From positions 1-35,250 of IMG/VR virus record IMGVR_UViG_3300025853_000298: a DNA stretch of 35,250 nt. One strand, given 5' to 3'. Positions 3,697 through 34,630 of this stretch are shown here, one piece after another (the stretch's first letter is position 1; each line of letters begins with the position of its first letter). The stretch is from a virus. A program made the position numbers and the translations under genes. The notes beneath the pieces were generated by a model. The model had not been told where the DNA came from. It was given only the letters and a program-made list of their open reading frames with translations, and searched no databases.

Positions 3697-4035
3697 ATGA
3701 GCACACTTGCACAAGAACTTGAGACCAAGGCCGAGATCCAGTCACGCCGGGTCATCCGTCGCGACGGCGGCACAATCGACATCAACCGACACGCCAGCGG
3801 CACCGTCACACTCGGATGCAAGGCGCCGGGATGCACGCTCGTCGTTCACCTCGACCCGGGCCAGGCGCGCGAGGTCGGCGAGACGCTCGCCGCGTTCGAC
3901 GCCGAGACTGGCACCGGGTCGGCCAAGGTCTCGCGAGCGCTGGCGTTCCTGCGCGCTCTGGAGATGACGCAGCGCGAGGCCCGGACCTTGCGCGGAATGC
4001 TGCCGGAACTGGCAGAGGAGCCCGGCAATGTCTGA
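3697..4035 (+). CDS. Hypothetical protein, first gene of the nuclease operon
   Basis: A 112-residue protein that I do not recognise. It has a strong AGGAGG ribosome-binding site five bases before the ATG. An N-terminal charged helix is followed by a short beta-rich segment with GCKAPGC (two cysteines four residues apart) and a C-terminal helical part rich in Arg and Glu (MTQREARTLRGMLPEL). It overlaps the PD-(D/E)XK nuclease by eight bases, so the two are probably co-translated and it may serve recombination or replication; this is context only. Confidence 0.75.
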   Translation: MSTLAQELETKAEIQSRRVIRRDGGTIDINRHASGTVTLGCKAPGCTLVVHLDPGQAREVGETLAAFDAETGTGSAKVSRALAFLRALEMTQREARTLRGMLPELAEEPGNV

Positions 4036-4942
4036 TTTTCCATGGCACAACCCGACCGACCCGCCGCCGCTGGGCATTCACTACGACATGAGCGACCGCG
4101 ACTATCACGCCCTCCCCGCGATGCGTTGGTCGACGCTGTCAGCGGGGCTGAACTCGGCGCGCGCGCTGAATCACCGGCTGCACGAGTCGCGTGCTGACAG
4201 TCCCGCCCTCCGCATCGGCCGCGCCGTGCATCTGCGCGTGCTGCAGCCCAAGGTCTACGCCGCTGCCGTCGCTATCGTGCCCGACGAGCACATCACCGCG
4301 TCCGGCGCGATGAGCTCCAGCAAGGCCGCGCGAGCATGGCGCGAGGAGACCGCGACGTGGGCCGAGTCCGTGATCAGCCCGCGCGAGGCCGCAGAGATCC
4401 AGACGTGGGCGCGGCTGGTCGATGCCCACGACGGCGCCCGCGAGTTGCTTGCGCGCTGCACGCACCGCGAGGTGACCGCCGTGTGGACCGAGGACGACGG
4501 CGCCGGAGGGTCCATCGTGTGCAAGGCCCGCGCCGACATGCTCGGGCCTTCGCTGCTCGCCGACCTCAAGACGTGGAGCCCTCGCAGCGGGTTCAACGCG
4601 AGGACGTTCGGCCGCGAGTGCTGGTCGCGCAACTATCACGCGCAGCTCGGGTTCTACGCTCGCGGCTTCGCAGCGCACGACTACACGACCGCCGATCGCG
4701 GCTTTCTTGTCGTGAACAAGGGCGACGGCGGCGACGTCGGGGCGCTGATCTGTGACGGCGACATGAACGCGGCCGGTGACGCCGACGCGGTCGCAGCGCT
4801 CGACGTACTGCGCGCGGCGCTGCGGACGAACACCTGGGAGGGCGCAATGCCGGGAGTCGGCACTCTGTCGCTCCCCGCGTATGCCTACGAGAGCGACAAC
4901 AACGCCGACAGCCTGGGGCTCGTCGGGCTGGGGGACGCATGA
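4028..4942 (+). CDS. PD-(D/E)XK exonuclease, RecE/DUF3799-like
   Basis: Predicted phage 5'-3' exonuclease (exodeoxyribonuclease VIII type) that would produce single-stranded ends for homologous recombination. The 304-residue chain starts with the usual GIHYDMSDRDYHALPAMRWS segment, then RIGRAVHLRVLQP (the conserved histidine region), EVTAVWTEDD, and the catalytic core KARADML ... LADLKTWSP, i.e. D-x(n)-D-x-K, followed by YHAQLGFYARG, the conserved QxxxY-like motif of this class. It overlaps the gene before by eight bases and the gene after by ATGA, forming a three-gene unit. No single-strand annealing protein of the Bet/RecT/Erf type is recognisable nearby, so the 236-residue product that follows is the candidate partner. 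Confidence 0.85.
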   Translation: MSDFPWHNPTDPPPLGIHYDMSDRDYHALPAMRWSTLSAGLNSARALNHRLHESRADSPALRIGRAVHLRVLQPKVYAAAVAIVPDEHITASGAMSSSKAARAWREETATWAESVISPREAAEIQTWARLVDAHDGARELLARCTHREVTAVWTEDDGAGGSIVCKARADMLGPSLLADLKTWSPRSGFNARTFGRECWSRNYHAQLGFYARGFAAHDYTTADRGFLVVNKGDGGDVGALICDGDMNAAGDADAVAALDVLRAALRTNTWEGAMPGVGTLSLPAYAYESDNNADSLGLVGLGDA

Positions 4943-6186: not shown

Positions 6187-6539
6187 GCGTAGTTTACTGG
6201 CGCGCTCGCGCGGAGCAAGCAGAGCAAAAGCTGAAGCTTTGCTTGCGGGGGATCGGACTGATCGGCGCTAGCGCGGGGCTATACAATGACGCGAACTGCC
6301 CGATCCCAATGGTCGAGGTTGTCACGCGCGTGGTGGACGAGATCGCCCGCCTGACCCGCGAGCGCGACGAGGCGCGGGCTGCGATCAAGGACGCATACGG
6401 CGAGGGATGGTCGGACGGTGGGCACAGTGCAGAGTCGTTGTACGCTGGATACGGGTCGCACGACTTCGATGCTGCATGGCTTGCGTCCGACGCCATGCGC
6501 GCCGCAGACAAGGCCCTCGCAACCGAGGCCGCACAGTGA
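6183..6539 (+). CDS. Hypothetical protein with C-terminal helical domain
   Basis: A 118-residue protein I cannot assign to a named family. It has an N-terminal coiled-coil-like helix (WRARAEQAEQKLKLCLRGIG), a short middle segment, then ARLTRERDEARAAIKDAYGEG and a C-terminal stretch (SLYAGYGSHDFDAAWLASDA) of a kind seen in many small phage early proteins. Joined by ATGA to the HTH gene and by GTGA to the transglycosylase gene, so the three are probably translated together. Confidence 0.7.
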   Translation: MSVVYWRARAEQAEQKLKLCLRGIGLIGASAGLYNDANCPIPMVEVVTRVVDEIARLTRERDEARAAIKDAYGEGWSDGGHSAESLYAGYGSHDFDAAWLASDAMRAADKALATEAAQ

Positions 6540-7027
6540 CCGCTCTGCTTGCCGCCCTCCTGCTGCTCACCAGCAGTCCGCAACCGTGCTCGCAGTCGCT
6601 GTCCGCTGCGATCGAGCACGTCGAGAGCCGGGGGCACACGCTCGCGGTATCGCGGACGGGCGCGCGCGGTCTGTGGCAGGTCATGCCGCAGTGGTCGCGC
6701 TGGCCGTCGTGGGCGCTGCACGTCCCCGCGATCGGACGCTGGGAGGGCTGCCGGATTCTGCGGCGGTGGCAGGGGCGAGCTCGTCGGCAGTGTCGGCGGG
6801 AAGGGCGCGGGTGCCGGGTGATGGTGCGAGCGCTCGCTGGGTACAACGCGGGCAACGCGGGGCTGCGCGGCCGGTCGCGGCGAGGGATGGACTACGCGCG
6901 GGCGGTGCTCGCAAGAACGACGGCGAGGGGTCAAGCGACCAACAACCCCCGGCGCCGTCCAGTCACCCGGGCAACCCGTCGCGCGCGGGCTCTGCGCCGG
7001 GTGGCGCATTCGCACAGAGGGAGGTGA
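6536..7027 (+). CDS. Secreted lytic transglycosylase (SLT domain)
   Basis: Predicted peptidoglycan-cleaving lytic transglycosylase of 163 residues. It starts at GTG 6536 in a GTGA overlap. Residues 1-16 (VTALLAALLLLTSSPQ) are a short signal sequence, with a Cys at 18. The SLT core follows: AAIEHVESRG with catalytic Glu near residue 30, GARGLWQVMPQW (44-55), and ALAGYNAGNAGLRG, the conserved tyrosine/asparagine motif. The last 25 residues are strongly Arg-rich. The gene sits among early DNA-metabolism genes rather than with the endolysin on the other strand, so it is not simply part of the lysis cassette. Roles could be host-wall modification early in infection, or an accessory lysis function. 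Confidence 0.8.
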   Translation: MTALLAALLLLTSSPQPCSQSLSAAIEHVESRGHTLAVSRTGARGLWQVMPQWSRWPSWALHVPAIGRWEGCRILRRWQGRARRQCRREGRGCRVMVRALAGYNAGNAGLRGRSRRGMDYARAVLARTTARGQATNNPRRRPVTRATRRARALRRVAHSHRGR

Positions 7028-7031
7028 AGAC

Positions 7032-7262
7032 ATGGCAAAGGCAACGGTGGAGATGAGGATGCCACAACGGATTCTCGACACGATCGAGCGGGAAATCCGC
7101 AAGCGCGGCGATGACATCCAGCAGGCGATCCGCGACGCGCACCGCGCCGGTTACGAGGCCGGACTGTCGCGCGGGCGGCTAGCGGGTGTGCAGCGCCCCG
7201 ACGAGCAGGGTGCGTGGGAGGACTACCGCGAGGCGGTGTACGAGCGGAGGGACGAGCGATGA
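7032..7262 (+). CDS. Small helical protein of unknown function
   Basis: A 76-residue, highly charged protein, almost all predicted helix (MPQRILDTIEREIRKRGDDI and onward). No recognisable domain, signal peptide or cysteine. It has a good ribosome-binding site (GGGAGGTGA, 7019-7027) and an ATGA overlap with the next gene. Probably a small accessory early protein. Confidence 0.65.
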   Translation: MAKATVEMRMPQRILDTIEREIRKRGDDIQQAIRDAHRAGYEAGLSRGRLAGVQRPDEQGAWEDYREAVYERRDER

Positions 7263-7492
7263 GCATCACAACGAGCAGGCCGCTACGCTGGGAAATCGAG
7301 TTCGGCACGCGCGGCCACGGCACGCTTACCGAGTGGACCAACGGCGAGGGCTACGACCTGACGATCTATCTGCGCGAGGTGCCGACGGACCCGCCGCGCG
7401 AGGTGCACGTGTCGCTGACCGACGACGAGGCCGCTGTGATGCGATTGCTACTCGCCCGCGCCGAGGTGGCGCACCTGACGAGGGACCGATGA
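7259..7492 (+). CDS. Small beta-rich hypothetical protein
   Basis: A 77-residue protein, not recognised, with alternating strands (WEIEFGTRGHGTLTEW, YDLTIYLREV, EVHVSLTDDEAAVMRLL). Its last codons (HLTRDR, stop) lie inside an 88-bp perfect repeat: the Mom-like gene further on ends with the same six codons. The stop overlaps the start of the broken methyltransferase copy (ATGA at 7489-7492). Confidence 0.65.
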   Translation: MSITTSRPLRWEIEFGTRGHGTLTEWTNGEGYDLTIYLREVPTDPPREVHVSLTDDEAAVMRLLLARAEVAHLTRDR

Positions 7493-7557
7493 GAGGCACA
7501 CCCTGGTATCCCGATCTGCGCTGCGGCGACTGGCGCGAGGTGTTGGCGGATGTTGGC
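7470..7557 (+). repeat. 88-bp perfect direct repeat, left copy
   Basis: Identical to 8437-8524 (offset 967 bp). It covers the last codons of the upstream gene, the ATGA junction and the first 23 codons of the methyltransferase. Beyond it, homology continues with scattered differences to about 7607, pairing with 8574. Confidence 0.95.
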
Positions 7558-7638
7558 GAGGTTGACGCCATCGTGTGTGACTGCCCCTACAGCGCGCGGA
7601 CGCATGGTATGCAGCGCACAGAGAAGCACGACGACTGA
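7489..7638 (+). pseudogene. Truncated duplicate of the DNA methyltransferase N terminus
   Basis: A 49-residue ORF. Its first 23 codons are identical in DNA to the start of the intact methyltransferase at 8456, and the protein stays similar to about residue 39 (QVDAVIVDAPYSSRTH in the intact copy, EVDAIVCDCPYSARTH here). It then runs into an unrelated MQRTEKHDD and a stop. It retains a variant of the DxPY catalytic motif (DCPY, 31-34) but lacks everything else, including the AdoMet-binding motif, so it cannot be an active enzyme. Most likely it is what remains of an older methyltransferase after a Mom-like plus methyltransferase segment recombined in at this point. Confidence 0.8.
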
Positions 7639-7646
7639 AACAAAGA

Positions 7647-7683
7647 TGCCCCGCTGGCCGGAAAGGGAACAGCCGACGGGGCA
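7647..7683 (+). promoter_or_regulatory. Stem-loop just before the Mom-like gene
   Basis: TGCCCC (7647-7652) pairs with GGGGCA (7678-7683), and GCTG (7653-7656) with CAGC (7670-7673), leaving a four-base bulge and a 13-base purine-rich loop. It ends 17 bases before the ATG at 7701; the likely ribosome-binding site AAGGTGAT lies between. Could be a terminator without a T tract, or a translation-control hairpin. Confidence 0.5.
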
Positions 7684-7700
7684 GGGAAGGTGATAGGTTC

Positions 7701-8459
7701 ATGGTTGAATCCGCAGGCGGCGTCAAGCAGCGCAGCAAGGGCTACATCATCGAGCAGGCATCGTTGTTCGGGCAAGCTGACGTTGTTGGCTTTGGAGACG
7801 ACGATTTCTGCGTTCGGCTCATGCCGCGCGGCAAGGCCAACGCGATGATCAAAGCGGGCCATTACTCGAAGTCGGTGGTCAATGGCTCGTCCGTACACCT
7901 CGGGGTATACATCGACGGCTCCTGCGTTGGCGTGCTCCAATTCGGGCTAGCGCTGAATCCGGCAAGCGGGGATGGCATCGTGCGCGACTGCACGCGCGAT
8001 GAGTGGCTTGAGTTGAACCGCATGTGGCTGGACGACTGCGCGCCGCGCAACAGCGAATCACGCGCCCTGTCGTACGCGATGAAGTTCTTGAAGCGGCACA
8101 AGCCCAATCTGACGTGGGTGCAGTCCTTTGCCGATGAGCGTGCTGGCGGGCGGCTTGGGGTGGTCTACCAGGCATGTTCGGCGCTGTATTTAGGCGAGCA
8201 CTTGACCCAGTTCGTCGAGTTTGAGGGGCGCGCATATCACAGGATGGCGTGGAGCTCGACCGAGGCGTGGCTTGTTGGCAGACACCACAAGAGGTGGCTG
8301 AAGGTCAAGCGCGCGGTAGAGGCCGGCGAGGTGACGCCGCAAGCGTTCCGACAGTTTCGATACTTCTTCCCTGTGCGACGCGCAGTGCTTAAGCGGCTTC
8401 TGTTGAAACCGCAGGCGTACCCCAAGCCTGCACTGTCGCACCTGACGAGGGACCGATGA
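7701..8459 (+). CDS. Mom-like DNA hypermodification protein (GNAT-fold family)
   Basis: A 252-residue relative of phage Mu Mom, the protein that converts adenine to a carbamoylmethyl-modified form and so blocks restriction. Landmarks: IKAGHYSKSVV (His54-Tyr55), HLGVYIDGSCVGVLQFG, ELNRMWLDDCAPRNSESRAL (104-123), and VQSFADERAGGRLGVVYQACSALYLG with Asp145 and Tyr156. This is the order and spacing of Mom-family proteins (HY pair, ELxRLW.DD.PxNSESR, S.AD...G..GTIYQA..) as I remember them. The C-terminal 80 residues (HHKRWLKVKRAVE onward) are basic and less conserved. It lies between a broken and an intact methyltransferase, to which it is joined by ATGA. Its base composition is visibly less GC-rich than its neighbours, and its last six codons lie in the duplicated segment, both signs of recent acquisition. 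No Com-like zinc-finger translational activator is seen. Confidence 0.75.
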   Translation: MVESAGGVKQRSKGYIIEQASLFGQADVVGFGDDDFCVRLMPRGKANAMIKAGHYSKSVVNGSSVHLGVYIDGSCVGVLQFGLALNPASGDGIVRDCTRDEWLELNRMWLDDCAPRNSESRALSYAMKFLKRHKPNLTWVQSFADERAGGRLGVVYQACSALYLGEHLTQFVEFEGRAYHRMAWSSTEAWLVGRHHKRWLKVKRAVEAGEVTPQAFRQFRYFFPVRRAVLKRLLLKPQAYPKPALSHLTRDR

Positions 8460-8524
8460 GAGGCACACCCTGGTATCCCGATCTGCGCTGCGGCGACTGG
8501 CGCGAGGTGTTGGCGGATGTTGGC
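8437..8524 (+). repeat. 88-bp perfect direct repeat, right copy
   Basis: Second copy of 7470-7557, covering the final codons of the Mom-like gene and the first 23 codons of the intact methyltransferase. Complete identity over 88 bp, next to diverged homologous sequence, indicates recent duplication or gene conversion. Confidence 0.95.
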
Positions 8525-9280
8525 CAGGTGGACGCGGTGATCGTCGATGCGCCCTACAGCTCGCGGACGCATGGCGGGCACGAAGAAGCCGTGGCTGATA
8601 CGCGGTTGTCCGGCGAGGAAAAGCGGATGCGTGTGGACAAGCGCACAGGCGCGATCTACTCGGTCGGAGTCAACCGTCGCCGCGCCCTATCCTACGACGG
8701 CTGGACTGCCGCCGACGTGTCCGAATTCGTGGACGCATGGTCACCGCGCTGCCGTGGCTGGTTCGTGACTATCACCGATCACGCTCTCGCCCCGCACTGG
8801 TCCGCCGCCCTCGCCGCGCACGATCGCTATGTCTTCGCGCCGCTGCCGTGGGTCGCGCCGGGTGGCAGAGTGCGGCTCGCGGGCGATGGTCCCTCGTCGT
8901 GGACGTGTTGGATCGTCGTCGCTCGGCCTCGCAGCGGCACCGACCGCAACGGGCGCAAGTTCTCTAAGTGGGGCACGTTGCGCGGCGCCTACATCGCAAC
9001 ACAGGACCGAGGCGCGCACATCGGGGGCAAGCCACTGAAGTTGATGCGCCAGCTCGTGCAGGACTACACCCGCCTCGGCGATCTGGTCGCGGACCCATGC
9101 GCGGGCGGTGGAACAACCCTGCTCGCGGCAGCACAGGAAGGGCGGCGCAGCGTCGGCGCGGAGTTGGACCCGGAGACGTTCGCGCTCGCGGAGGCGCGGA
9201 TCTCCGAGGCACTGGCGCAAGCGGACCTCTACACCGAAGCGCAGATCCAGCAGGCAATCAACGGCGACCTACCGTTCTAG
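8456..9280 (+). CDS. DNA methyltransferase, beta-class (N6-adenine or N4-cytosine)
   Basis: AdoMet-dependent amino-methyltransferase of 274 residues. The catalytic DxPY motif appears as DAPY (31-34), near the N terminus. It is followed by a variable, probably target-recognition, region (50-180), motif X-like IGGKPLKLMRQLV (189-201) and the AdoMet-binding motif DPCAGGGTTLLAA (213-225), then GAELDPETFALAEARI. The motif order IV - TRD - X - I is the beta class. Specificity cannot be read from sequence. It is co-translated with the Mom-like gene (ATGA at 8456-8459), suggesting that the two modifications work together, although Mom itself does not require a phage methylase. A DAPY instead of DPPY catalytic motif is a tolerated variant in many phage enzymes. 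Confidence 0.88.
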   Translation: MRGTPWYPDLRCGDWREVLADVGQVDAVIVDAPYSSRTHGGHEEAVADTRLSGEEKRMRVDKRTGAIYSVGVNRRRALSYDGWTAADVSEFVDAWSPRCRGWFVTITDHALAPHWSAALAAHDRYVFAPLPWVAPGGRVRLAGDGPSSWTCWIVVARPRSGTDRNGRKFSKWGTLRGAYIATQDRGAHIGGKPLKLMRQLVQDYTRLGDLVADPCAGGGTTLLAAAQEGRRSVGAELDPETFALAEARISEALAQADLYTEAQIQQAINGDLPF

Positions 9281-9289
9281 GAGGGCGAG

Positions 9290-9526
9290 ATGCCAGACGA
9301 CACAAAAGGCCGGCAGTTCAGCCGCCGCGACCGCATCGCCGAGCTGAGCGACCTGCTCGAGCGGGAGCGGGCCGAGCGCGACGCCGAGCAAGCAGAGGCA
9401 GAGGAGCGGGGCGAGAGGTTCGCTGCCGGTGTGGTCGAGTTGTTCGAAGAAGTGGCGAGCTGGTTGCCGGAAAGCGAGGCTGCCGGTCTGCGGGCGCGAT
9501 TGGATGCGCTGCTGGCGGGGTCGTGA
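9290..9526 (+). CDS. Small coiled-coil hypothetical protein
   Basis: A 78-residue, very charged helical protein: RRDRIAELSDLLERERAERD is strongly coiled-coil, and LPESEAAGLRARLDALL ends it. GGAGGG ribosome-binding site directly after the methyltransferase stop. TGATG overlap with the next gene. No recognised family. Confidence 0.65.
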   Translation: MPDDTKGRQFSRRDRIAELSDLLERERAERDAEQAEAEERGERFAAGVVELFEEVASWLPESEAAGLRARLDALLAGS

Positions 9527-10035
9527 TGGCGCGCCCAGTAACCGCAGCCGAGCGCCGCCGCATTCTCGCGATGCACCGAGACGGCGAGAAGCTAGTCGTC
9601 ATCGCAGCGACGGTCGGGCGCCCTGTCTCGACGGTTCACGACATCGCCAGCCGCGCGGGGCTGAAGCGCGGGAGAGGCCACCGCGCCTCGACTGCCGAGG
9701 AGCGCGCAGCATGGCAGAGGGCGCGCGACGCGGGCGCAACGCTGGAGCAGATCGCAGAGGGCACGCGCTGGTCCCGCGCGACCATCGGCGCACACACAGT
9801 GCCAACCGGAGGGCGCACGCCCCGCCGAGAGCCTGATCCGCCTCGCAAGCCCCGTCGCATGGACGCACGACGGCCCGAGCCTGTGACCGACAGGTGGCGG
9901 CGCTACCGCCTGCGCCTCGCGCCCCGCCGCACCGAGCGCGAGAGCTTCGCGCAGTGCTGGGCCGAAGCGCTGGCAGAGGGACTGCCGCCGCAGCATCGGC
10001 GCGAGGCTCTGCGGCTGCTGTCGCGGACGAGATAG
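9526..10035 (+). CDS. Protein with two helix-turn-helix units
   Basis: A 169-residue basic protein with two successive resolvase/homeodomain-like helix-turn-helix segments: TAAERRRILAMHRDGEKLVV then PVSTVHDIASRAGLKRG (about 6-50), and ERAAWQRARDAGATLEQIAE then TRWSRATIGAHT (about 58-92). The rest is Arg/Pro-rich with a C-terminal helix. It probably binds DNA as a regulator or helps a neighbouring nuclease. It starts at ATG 9526 in a TGATG junction; the much longer frame running upstream overlaps the methyltransferase and is not coding. The RuvC-like gene follows after eight bases. Confidence 0.65.
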   Translation: MARPVTAAERRRILAMHRDGEKLVVIAATVGRPVSTVHDIASRAGLKRGRGHRASTAEERAAWQRARDAGATLEQIAEGTRWSRATIGAHTVPTGGRTPRREPDPPRKPRRMDARRPEPVTDRWRRYRLRLAPRRTERESFAQCWAEALAEGLPPQHRREALRLLSRTR

Positions 10036-10586: not shown

Positions 10587-11624
10587 ATGCGTATCGGCTC
10601 ACTGTTTAGCGGCATTGGCGCGATGGATCTAGCGTGCGAGCAGCACTTTAGCGCACGCACTGTTTGGCAGGTCGAGCGCGAGCCGTACTGTCGCGAGGTG
10701 TTGGCGCGTCACTGGCCCGACGCCGATCGCAGCGTGACGGACGTGCGAGAGGCCGGCGCCGACAGCCTCGCGCCCGTTGACATCATCTGTGGCGGGCCTC
10801 CGTGCGTGGACCTGTCGAGCGCCGGCCGACGCAAGGGACTGCACGCCGACCGCTCCGGCTTGTTCTTCGACATGGTGCGGATCTGCGCCGAGTTGCAGCC
10901 GCGATGGGTCGTCGTCGAGAACGTGCTAGCCCTGCTCACAGATTGGCGCGGGACAGTCGAGGGCGCTTTCGCTGATGCTGGCTATGGCGTCACCTGGGCG
11001 CGGGTGTCGGCGCAGCACGCGGGGGCTCCGCATTTGCGCTGGCGCACGGTCCTGCTGTGCGAGTTGGGCGGGCGACATCAAGGCGTCTGTCACCCGCCGC
11101 CGCTGCCGTCGCTGGCGAATGGCGTGCGCTGGCCGACCCCAACGGCGCGATGCGGGACGAGCGGGCCGTCGCAGATTGGGCGCGATGGGCACGGCGGTCC
11201 TGCGCTGCACGACGTAGTCGCAGTCGGCACCGGGTGGCCCACACCCGCCGCCCGCGATTGGAAGGACACAGGGCACGAGCCCGCAGCACAGGCGCGTAAC
11301 TCGCCGTGTCTGCCCGCTCGCACGGTGACCGACGAACCTGACGCCGTGCTCTGCCCGCGCTGGGAGGAGACGTTGCAAGGCTTGCCGGAGGGCTGGACCT
11401 CGCTCGACGAGCCGCTGACGCCGCGCCCATGGCCGCTGCCCGCCATCGAGGACATGTGGGGCGCGTCGCCGCAGCACGACCTTGAGCCGCCGCGCGCGAG
11501 GGTCGAGCGGGTGCCACACCGCAAAGAGCGCATCAAGGCGCTCGGTAACTGCTGCCCGCCTCAACAGTACCTCTACGCGCTGGCGATGCTGCGAGAGGGC
11601 CCGAGGCAGGGGATGCTTATCTGA
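10587..11624 (+). CDS. C5-cytosine DNA methyltransferase
   Basis: Dcm-type enzyme of 345 residues that makes 5-methylcytosine. Conserved motifs in the standard order: FSGIGAMDLA (7-16, AdoMet binding), ICGGPPCVDLSSAG (67-80, catalytic Cys73), VVENV (109-113), SAQHAGAPHLRWRTVL (motif VIII region), and IKALGNCCPPQQYLYAL near the C terminus (motif X). The target-recognition region between motifs VIII and IX is Pro-rich and contains WPTPTARCGTSGPSQIGRDG, as in many phage Dcm enzymes. Ribosome-binding site TGGAGGA at 10577-10583. A solitary phage methyltransferase of this kind usually protects against host restriction. Its end overlaps a minus-strand gene by eight bases. Confidence 0.92.
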   Translation: MRIGSLFSGIGAMDLACEQHFSARTVWQVEREPYCREVLARHWPDADRSVTDVREAGADSLAPVDIICGGPPCVDLSSAGRRKGLHADRSGLFFDMVRICAELQPRWVVVENVLALLTDWRGTVEGAFADAGYGVTWARVSAQHAGAPHLRWRTVLLCELGGRHQGVCHPPPLPSLANGVRWPTPTARCGTSGPSQIGRDGHGGPALHDVVAVGTGWPTPAARDWKDTGHEPAAQARNSPCLPARTVTDEPDAVLCPRWEETLQGLPEGWTSLDEPLTPRPWPLPAIEDMWGASPQHDLEPPRARVERVPHRKERIKALGNCCPPQQYLYALAMLREGPRQGMLI

Positions 11625-12376: not shown

Positions 12377-12386
12377 GCGCACCCCA

Positions 12387-12428
12387 ACCGCCCAGCCCCG
12401 AAGGTTCGTCCTCGGGGCTCGCGGCGGT
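12387..12428 (+). repeat. Intergenic hairpin element, copy 1
   Basis: Outer stem ACCGCC/GGCGGT, internal loop C/CGC, inner stem AGCCCCGA/TCGGGGCT, loop AGGTTCGTCC. The 49 bases 12388-12436 are identical to 12707-12755. It lies between two small genes and starts 11 bases after a stop codon. Confidence 0.85.
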
Positions 12429-12470
12429 AGAGACACTACGAAACGCGCCGAGGCGCACACGGAGTCAACA

Positions 12471-12692: not shown

Positions 12693-12706
12693 CCCCACAC
12701 CCCAAC

Positions 12707-12747
12707 CCGCCCAGCCCCGAAGGTTCGTCCTCGGGGCTCGCGGCGGT
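12707..12747 (+). repeat. Intergenic hairpin element, copy 2
   Basis: Same inner stem, loop and 3' flank as copy 1. The outer stem is shortened to CCGCC/GGCGG because the next pair is C/T. It lies 14 bases after one small gene and 28 before the next. Confidence 0.85.
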
Positions 12748-12775
12748 AGAGACACCCTCAAACCTGGAGCCCAAC

Positions 12776-32485: not shown

Positions 32486-32526
32486 GATCGTTGCGGTGGT
32501 GCAACAATGGGTTGAGATTGTCTCAG
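32486..32526. promoter_or_regulatory. ATTGTNNCA-type boxes between terminase and gpW genes
   Basis: GATCGTTGCGG (32486-32496) and GTGCAACAAT (32499-32508) form an inverted repeat: ATTGTTGC/GCAACGAT on the minus strand with six bases between. GATTGTCTCAG (32516-32526) overlaps the TGA stop of the terminase gene. Likely operator/promoter for gpW and the following head genes. Confidence 0.45.
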
Positions 32527-34430
32527 AACCTCGGACGGAACTTGCCCCGGCTGCGCGGGCGTTTCTGCTGCTGCGGCTTGCGGGGCGTCGGCGGCGCGGG
32601 CTCTGCCGCTTCGCGTGTGCGGCGTGCGCGCTCCCCCGGCGACAACTCCGGCAACGCGGCGTGCAGAGACTCAAGCGACCGGCCCACCGACAGCAGGCTA
32701 TGAAGCGCTGCCGATGCGTAGACGCGGCAGTCGAGCGCCTCCGACCGTGCCGATCCGACCGCGCGCCACTCGCGGACGGGACGCCCTCTGCTGTAACGAA
32801 CAACGGGGCGCTCGGCGAGGAGCTGCTGATACCAGCCAAGGTCGCGCCCCGCTGGGAAGTGGAGCGCACCTGCGCCAGCCTCGACGCGCTGAAGCCTCGC
32901 CCAGAGCATGTCCTTGCCGGTGTCCACACCGACGTTGTAGACGCGGGCGGCGCCCTTGCGGTTGCCTTTGCGTCCGCGCTTCGGCCAGAGCGGGCGCTTT
33001 GGTCCGGCAACGCCCTTGATGGCGTACCAGCGGCGGCGACGGTGAGCGTGGGCAAACGCCTGGACGTGGTCGCTCATGTAGCCCGCATCAATGCAGGCTG
33101 CGGCAAGCGTCATCGGTCCCGCTGTCTCGTGCTGCCACACCCGCTCAAGGTACACCCGGAGGTCATCCCACAGCATCGGGCCGGACGGGTCGCCGGGAAT
33201 CACGGCGTAGTCGATCGACCACGACTCCTCACCCGGGCCCCAGCCGACGATCTCGACCTCGACGCGGTCGATCTGCACATCGACGCCAGCGGTAAGCACG
33301 GCAACGCCTGCCGGGACCTCGGCGGCGTAATCCTCGGCGCGCTCGGCAAGCCCTGTCTCGTCGATGTCGTCGTCGCGGAACTCGTCCCACGTCTCGGCGA
33401 GGCGCGTGTTGACGAACACTTGCAACAGCTTGGGATCGCCGTCGCACTGCAAGAACTCGGCGACGAGCGACGGCCAGCTCGCCGGGGTCCAGCCTGCCGG
33501 AGCGTAGAGGCTCGACAGGTGGTAGCCGTACACTCGGCCGTCTTCCGCGTCCGGCTGCGTCGCAACCCACCGCCCGCGCGGCAACATCGTAGCCTTGTGC
33601 CGGTCGTAGATCGGATCGTCGCAACCGGCGCACTCGTAGTAGACGCTCGCCGGATCGCGGTCGTTCCAGTGCAGGTGCTCCCACTGCAAATGCTGATAGG
33701 TGCCGCAGTGAGGGCACGGGACCTCGTAGACCCGTTGGCCTGTCCGTAGGTACTCAGCCTCGACGCGCGAGGCGCCCTTGACGGTCGGTGTGCTGGTGAT
33801 CAGCAGCTTGCGGTTGGGAAACGAGGTCGTGCGCTTGGCGGCAAGCTCAAGCGGGTCGCCTTCGCTGCCGGCGCTCGCGGGGAAGCGGTCGATCTCGTCG
33901 GCGAAGACGTACCGGATCGGCATCGACGCGAGCGGGCTCGGAGCGTTCGCGCCCACGATCTTGAGCATCCCGCCTGGGAACTCCTTTAGCGTCAACGTGT
34001 TGCCGCTGTCTCGCGACTTGGGGTCAGCGACAAGGCGGCGCAAAGTCGGCGCGTCCGAGATCATCGGCGCGATCCGTTGCTTGCTGTACGTCTCCGCCAT
34101 CTCGACCGTCGGCTGCATCATCATCGACGGACCTGGAGCGTGCGCCATGATGTAGCCCAGCCAGTTGTTGCCGACCGACGACTTGCCGAGCTGCGAACCC
34201 CACATAAGCACGACGCGCTCGCAGCGGTCGCCCTCGCTGAGGCGCTGCATCGGTTCAATCGCGTAGGGCGTCCGAGCGCTGCGGTAGGGTCCGGGCTCGG
34301 CGCTTGTCTTGCTGCTCAGGCGGATGTGCGCGTCGGCCCACTCCGACACGTCGAGCGGCGGCGGCGGGGCGAGCACAGCCCAGAACGCGGCCTCGAGCTC
34401 GGCGGGATCGGCGAGAGGGAAGCGGCTCAC
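32523..34430 (-). CDS. Large terminase subunit (GpA-like)
   Basis: DNA-packaging ATPase-nuclease of 635 residues. Starting at GTG 34430 (GTGA overlap): Walker A-like WGSQLGKS (77-84), Walker B YVFADEID (174-181), coupling motif LLITSTPTVKGASRVE (209-224), a zinc-ribbon-like pair VPCPHCG (237-243) and ECAGC (266-270), and nuclease acidic residues in TAGVDVQIDRVEVEIVGWG (D384, D388). The C terminus is basic and Pro-rich. This is the GpA family of lambda-like packaging enzymes. Longer upstream starts overlap the preceding gene and are less likely. Confidence 0.93.
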   Translation of the reverse strand: MSRFPLADPAELEAAFWAVLAPPPPLDVSEWADAHIRLSSKTSAEPGPYRSARTPYAIEPMQRLSEGDRCERVVLMWGSQLGKSSVGNNWLGYIMAHAPGPSMMMQPTVEMAETYSKQRIAPMISDAPTLRRLVADPKSRDSGNTLTLKEFPGGMLKIVGANAPSPLASMPIRYVFADEIDRFPASAGSEGDPLELAAKRTTSFPNRKLLITSTPTVKGASRVEAEYLRTGQRVYEVPCPHCGTYQHLQWEHLHWNDRDPASVYYECAGCDDPIYDRHKATMLPRGRWVATQPDAEDGRVYGYHLSSLYAPAGWTPASWPSLVAEFLQCDGDPKLLQVFVNTRLAETWDEFRDDDIDETGLAERAEDYAAEVPAGVAVLTAGVDVQIDRVEVEIVGWGPGEESWSIDYAVIPGDPSGPMLWDDLRVYLERVWQHETAGPMTLAAACIDAGYMSDHVQAFAHAHRRRRWYAIKGVAGPKRPLWPKRGRKGNRKGAARVYNVGVDTGKDMLWARLQRVEAGAGALHFPAGRDLGWYQQLLAERPVVRYSRGRPVREWRAVGSARSEALDCRVYASAALHSLLSVGRSLESLHAALPELSPGERARRTREAAEPAPPTPRKPQQQKRPRSRGKFRPRF

Positions 34431-34630
34431 CGCTTGCGCTCCGAATTCTCGTCGCAGAACGGGCGGATGCGTTCGCGCGCAAACTTCGCCGCGTCTTCCG
34501 CAGACACATCTCGGAGAATCGAGACGCAGCGAATCGGGACGCAAGCGCCGTCGACGTATTCGGTTTTGCCCTCGGTAGTCCGAAACTCCAACACCACGAC
34601 CTTGCCGCGCTTGTCTTTGCTCTCTGTCAT
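34427..34630 (-). CDS. Small hypothetical protein between terminase genes
   Basis: A 67-residue protein, MTESKDKRGKVVVLEFRTTE to the end PFCDENSERKR. The middle contains GACVPIRCVSILRDVSAEDA. ATGA overlap with the small terminase gene and GTGA with the large terminase gene. A small gene at this place is unusual for a lambda-like order; it may assist packaging, but I see no motif. Confidence 0.65.
   Translation of the reverse strand: MTESKDKRGKVVVLEFRTTEGKTEYVDGACVPIRCVSILRDVSAEDAAKFARERIRPFCDENSERKR

Follow-up and report, generated by a model that had tools for sequence, protein, structure and literature searches.

A Mom-family gene probably acquired by insertion at the start of a beta-class methyltransferase gene in a phage

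The Mom protein of phage Mu decorates viral DNA, blocking host restriction enzymes, and transcription of its gene depends on methylation by host Dam, which keeps OxyR away. Expression of Mu mom is subjected to control by C, by methylation and by Com, and is lethal when untimely (PMC4461284, PMC6483171), the methyltransferase dependence of its transcription being attributed, in PMC4461284, to Hattman 1982 and Bolker & Kahmann 1989. In jumbo phages Mom occurs fused to a restriction-like nuclease (PMC7824862), which resembles the locus described here in placing Mom beside another DNA-acting protein but differs from it in that our mom gene overlaps a methyltransferase gene instead. A literature search of limited reach retrieved no relevant description of Mom together with a methyltransferase, although an earlier one is possible. 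The locus lies in a stretch of 35,250 nt, hereafter the window, of the IMG/VR virus record IMGVR_UViG_3300025853_000298. Our analysis makes it probable that a gene for a Mom-family enzyme was acquired here as an accessory by insertion into the 5' part of a methyltransferase gene, the two enzymes leaving independent marks on the DNA; the adjacency of both genes seems to reflect the mode of arrival rather than a new two-part modification machine.

The ORF at 7701-8459 (plus strand, 252 aa) encodes a true Mom-family enzyme with the GNAT fold, predicted to modify adenine in DNA. Its product matched Pfam family PF25680 (Mom) along profile positions 2-202 of 202 with E=1.1e-59 and a score of 202 bits (cut-off 27.1), PHROG 1384 (Mom, E=1.6e-45) and, among PDB sequences, Mu Mom itself (E=3e-44; NP_050657), with which it shares about 39-44% identity. 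The AlphaFold2 model, built on 41 Moms, had a mean pLDDT of 87.5 and could be superimposed end to end on the crystal structure of Mu Mom (8bv8), 219 residues aligning with Z 26.5 and rmsd 2.5; GNAT acetyltransferases ranked next, with Z not exceeding 12.7. The first-pass annotation had called this ORF Mom-like on account of H54-Y55, E104-L-N-R-M-W109...D112, N117-S-E-S-R, D145 and Y156 with YQACSALYLG; all these landmarks are found where it had placed them, and the assignment is borne out by the profiles and by the similarity to Mu Mom, at E-values that leave no room for a chance match. Comparison of 135 non-redundant Moms revealed that all but one of the most conserved residues of the family are kept in the window protein; those kept include HYS, ELNR.W..D, E119-S120, D145, H180, R220-Y221 and, again, Y156. 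S120 is equivalent to S124 of Mu Mom, whose S124A mutant is named inactive in the PDB title of 8bv8. The reaction, conversion of adenine to N6-carbamoylmethyladenine, and its late timing are by analogy most likely those of Mu. Among annotated phages the nearest Moms are those of Pseudomonas phages JD024 (49.5% identity) and PAN70 (43.3%), but in these com-mom is located near the genome end or beside an integrase gene and adjoins no methyltransferase. A Mu-type DNA hypermodification enzyme is hereby placed in a phage that lacks close relatives among those annotated.

Besides its other surroundings and the lack of an upstream Com, the window locus departs from that of Mu in the protein itself, which carries a foreign C-terminal tail and an alanine at the equivalent of Mu F164. 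This substitution, F161A in window numbering, is the loss of one near-invariant residue (F in 130 of 133 Moms) and is accompanied by N160S within the conserved YQASNF block; 26 columns are invariant in the alignment of 41 Moms. Since, in addition, the protein sits on a long branch (0.9) of the Mom tree, its activity could be altered. With its insertions of one and six residues and the foreign tail, it might even be a captured gene on the way to decay or to another role, no longer an active Mom. We consider this doubtful, as the reading frame is open over its full length, the Mom fold is predicted with high confidence and the remaining most conserved residues, S120 and D145 among them, are present.

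Mom ends in an ATGA overlap with the start of a second gene on the plus strand (8456-9280, 274 aa), predicted to encode an intact beta-class N6-adenine/N4-cytosine DNA methyltransferase. It matched PF01555 (N6_N4_Mtase) with E=9e-14 in Pfam and shows the motif order of the beta class, motif IV (DAPYS; D31-P33-Y34) preceding motif I (DPCAGGGTT; D213-P214...G217), while a Foldseek search with its model retrieved the SAM methyltransferase fold, M1.HpyAVI (E=6e-12) being the best match and CcrM following with E=1.5e-10. The enzyme aligned over its full length with a series of phage methyltransferases (L002-L019; 41-61% identity), and the DAPYS variant of motif IV occurs in these relatives too. Many of them have an ATGA or GTGA overlap with the preceding gene (L002, L003, L005-L007, L011, L017 and L018), but these preceding genes are various and unrelated, and none of them is mom, so that the overlap is a habit of the methyltransferase itself. 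Moreover, a Mom profile search of the 18 records carrying these relatives, some of which are fragments, retrieved no Mom in 17. The single positive record, L002, holds the closest methyltransferase relative (61%), a ParB-like ORF and then, about 720 nt downstream of the methyltransferase, a much more divergent Mom-like protein (L002:705-2926). The presence of a beta-class neighbour joined to mom by ATGA had been correctly anticipated; the further proposal that both genes form a dedicated unit for a combined modification is not supported, given the behaviour of the relatives and the location of the ATGA junction within a duplicated block.

This block contains the longest exact direct repeat of the window, 88 nt at 7470 and 8437, whereas simulated windows give 15-17 nt. 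Around it, 102 nt (7467-7568 and 8434-8535) are 97% identical, and a stretch of lower identity extends the left copy (7467-7607) and the right copy (8434-8574), both read on the plus strand, by a more divergent last 39 nt or so. In each copy the end of a small upstream gene is joined, through an ATGA overlap, to the beginning of the methyltransferase gene, and mom lies between the copies. The small gene, which we call gene U (7214-7492, plus strand, 92 aa), had no Pfam or PHROG match and is presumed to be the original neighbour of the methyltransferase; it ends in AHLTRDR* and overlaps by ATGA with a truncated methyltransferase copy (7489-7638, plus strand). This stub has only motif IV, as DCPYS, lacks the SAM-binding part and stops after 49 codons, being probably a relic of the insertion, whereas the right copy opens the intact enzyme. 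The last seven residues of Mom, SHLTRDR*, fall in the right copy in the same frame as the end of gene U, and therefore the tail of Mom and its ATGA overlap derive from the copied target. No other part of the window has so low a GC content as the segment bounded by the repeat (7608-8433, plus strand); its 795-nt mom core (7639-8433) stands at 0.611, whereas the window averages 0.679, which places this core in the lowest 0.14% of equal-sized stretches. The first-pass annotation had taken base composition as a sign of transfer, which these values support, but had not recorded the flanking repeat, and the beginning of the interval it assigned to the pair, 7489-7638, is the truncated copy. As a whole, its reading stands for the Mom family, the GNAT-like fold, the beta-class neighbour and the signs of transfer, and is not supported for the dedicated unit making a combined modification.

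On this basis, a segment of about 826 nt with mom would have been inserted into the 5' portion of a beta-class methyltransferase gene of the phage, leaving about 141 nt of the target, that is the end of gene U and the methyltransferase start, on both flanks. The left copy would have become the 49-codon stub and the right copy the start of the intact methyltransferase, while the mom frame would have been prolonged through the duplicated end of gene U, thereby gaining a borrowed tail and the overlap. As a consequence mom and the methyltransferase gene are co-oriented and possibly coupled in translation. The window would thus illustrate a route of gene entry into an operon, in which the target is copied on both sides and at once supplies an overlap with the downstream gene. 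Most differences between the two copies fall in the final ~40 nt; there the stub is closer to L003, with DCPYS, and the intact gene to L002, with DAPYS. Since the motif IV forms match different relatives, a plain one-step duplication of a single allele does not account for the pattern unless recombination followed, and the comparison points to alleles that recombined when the segment entered or later. A misjoin of the assembly at the 88-nt repeat is possible and could alter which methyltransferase body follows mom, the stub-mom junction being unaffected. The order of events can only be inferred, because searches for contigs with an empty, mom-less site retrieved none and neither mom nor the methyltransferase was detected in two distant relatives of 33-35 kb. 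Comparable flanking repeats were found at no other of the 135 mom loci examined, and repeat-flanked mom was accordingly rejected as a general mechanism of mobility. An exonuclease VIII-like gene is encoded on the plus strand at 4028-4942 (PHROG 412, E=7e-35), which suggests that the phage brings recombination of its own, for which the 88-nt repeats flanking mom could be substrates.

Alternatively, Mom and methyltransferase could be a working pair, with a combined anti-restriction coat kept by selection, in which the methyltransferase marks certain adenines or cytosines and Mom hypermodifies different ones, or methylation tunes the Mom sites. Indeed, beta-class methyltransferase genes abut or overlap mom in L031, L034, L064, L158 and L137, and in further loci of unrelated phages they lie on the same strand within ~500 nt. 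In the 16 records with both genes, proximity exceeded random placement (Fisher combined P=1.6e-4; P=0.0018 when limited to records of 15 kb or more), values that are somewhat generous since the null was simple uniform placement with the nearest match taken per record. PF01555 was also the most frequent family among the 99 ORFs adjoining mom, yet with 5 members only. The five partners that were aligned are not orthologous to the window enzyme (23-29% identity), they are located upstream of mom in some loci and downstream in others, most Mom loci have none close by, and adjacency requires about 12 state changes on the Mom tree. Hence, no orthologous pair is conserved across genomes and the association looks convergent; part of the proximity would stem from a general clustering of modification genes, which may share a phage region without acting together. 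A working pair is therefore an improbable explanation of this locus, a loose functional tie between Mom and methyltransferases is possible, and joint chemistry is not indicated by the sequences compared. A broader version, in which phages repeatedly unite Mom with a beta-class methyltransferase for joint action, be it a two-layer coat or a methylation switch restraining a toxic Mom where Com is absent, is scarcely more probable; if true, the window would represent a recently formed example whose trace of insertion remains legible. The finding that Mom and unrelated methyltransferases cluster statistically provides a testable lead. Two Desulfovibrio loci show further arrangements: com, mom and a methyltransferase gene occur together in a contig (L137:1001-2957), and a single ORF (L130:33-1193) fuses Mom with the C-terminal part of a methyltransferase, probably as a deletion relic.

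The control of mom in the window probably departs from that of Mu. The Mu-type com-mom operon, with a Com zinc-ribbon ORF at the mom start, was not found here, and the Com profile reached at best 5.4 bits over 6901-7800, at the level of noise, while relatives reach 47-109 bits. Com adjoins mom in 41 of the 135 Mom loci sampled, all within one large clade of the Mom tree, and thus Com control looks like a trait of one Mom branch; the window Mom falls just outside the Com-bearing rows (SH-aLRT 93 and 82), in a position that is uncertain. The gene has its own Shine-Dalgarno-like sequence at 7683-7692 on the plus strand (around GGAAGGTGAT; anti-SD duplex of -8.6 kcal/mol). With this ribosome-binding site and no Com upstream, the window mom probably needs no Com. 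An inhibitory hairpin like that of Mu, covering the start of mom, was discarded (fold z-scores of -0.26 and -0.22), in a test that is weak, as the Mu control sequence did not score either. A Com remnant within the 49-aa stub was likewise dismissed, PF10122 giving a noise-level E=0.043 and the stub being accounted for by the methyltransferase repeat, and so was the idea that the stub serves mom as a coupling leader, since it stops 62 nt ahead of the mom start. Unannotated Com zinc-ribbon ORFs were detected directly 5' of mom in Pseudomonas phages JD024 and PAN70 (L020:1215-1433 and L021:1709-1933).

A regulatory tie could be imagined in which the phage methyltransferase methylates the mom control region and, in place of host Dam and of Com, acts as the switch that times a toxic Mom. 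Such a switch has its precedent in the methyltransferase-dependent mom transcription described for Mu in the studies that PMC4461284 cites, and it would fit the lack of Com in the window and, among the methyltransferase-paired relatives, its confinement to the Desulfovibrio loci L130 and L137. We regard it as very unlikely, given that no promoter-like site was found within 6500-10000 (a weak test outside sigma-70 promoters), that 7200-7720 contains two GATC sites only, that the methyltransferase gene sits downstream of mom, and that the absence of Com tracks the Mom lineage more than the presence of a methyltransferase.

Under the preferred explanation, an insertion followed by independent action, Mom would act late in infection, converting a fraction of the phage adenines to N6-carbamoylmethyladenine and thereby shielding the DNA from host restriction, whereas the methyltransferase would retain its usual function, producing m6A or m4C at sites of its own. 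Both marks would add as independent protection, with no requirement for shared chemistry. A C5 cytosine DNA methyltransferase (PF00145, E=1e-32) is encoded on the plus strand at 10587-11624, so that three DNA-modifying enzymes are encoded within 4 kb; together they could provide a layered, passive anti-restriction. The Mom family is already known, and what the window adds is a new setting and an unusually readable insertion history, with no new chemistry on present evidence. The terminase encoded on the minus strand at 32523-34544 is 98% identical in three other metagenome contigs (L188-L190), which indicates that the phage recurs; neither mom nor the methyltransferase gene was matched in these contigs, whose length does not suffice to test the region. 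A second direct repeat of 55 nt (12382-12436 and 12701-12755, 96% identity, 319 nt apart) contains a CCCCGA...TCGGGG hairpin and may represent a terminator or regulatory element that was duplicated.
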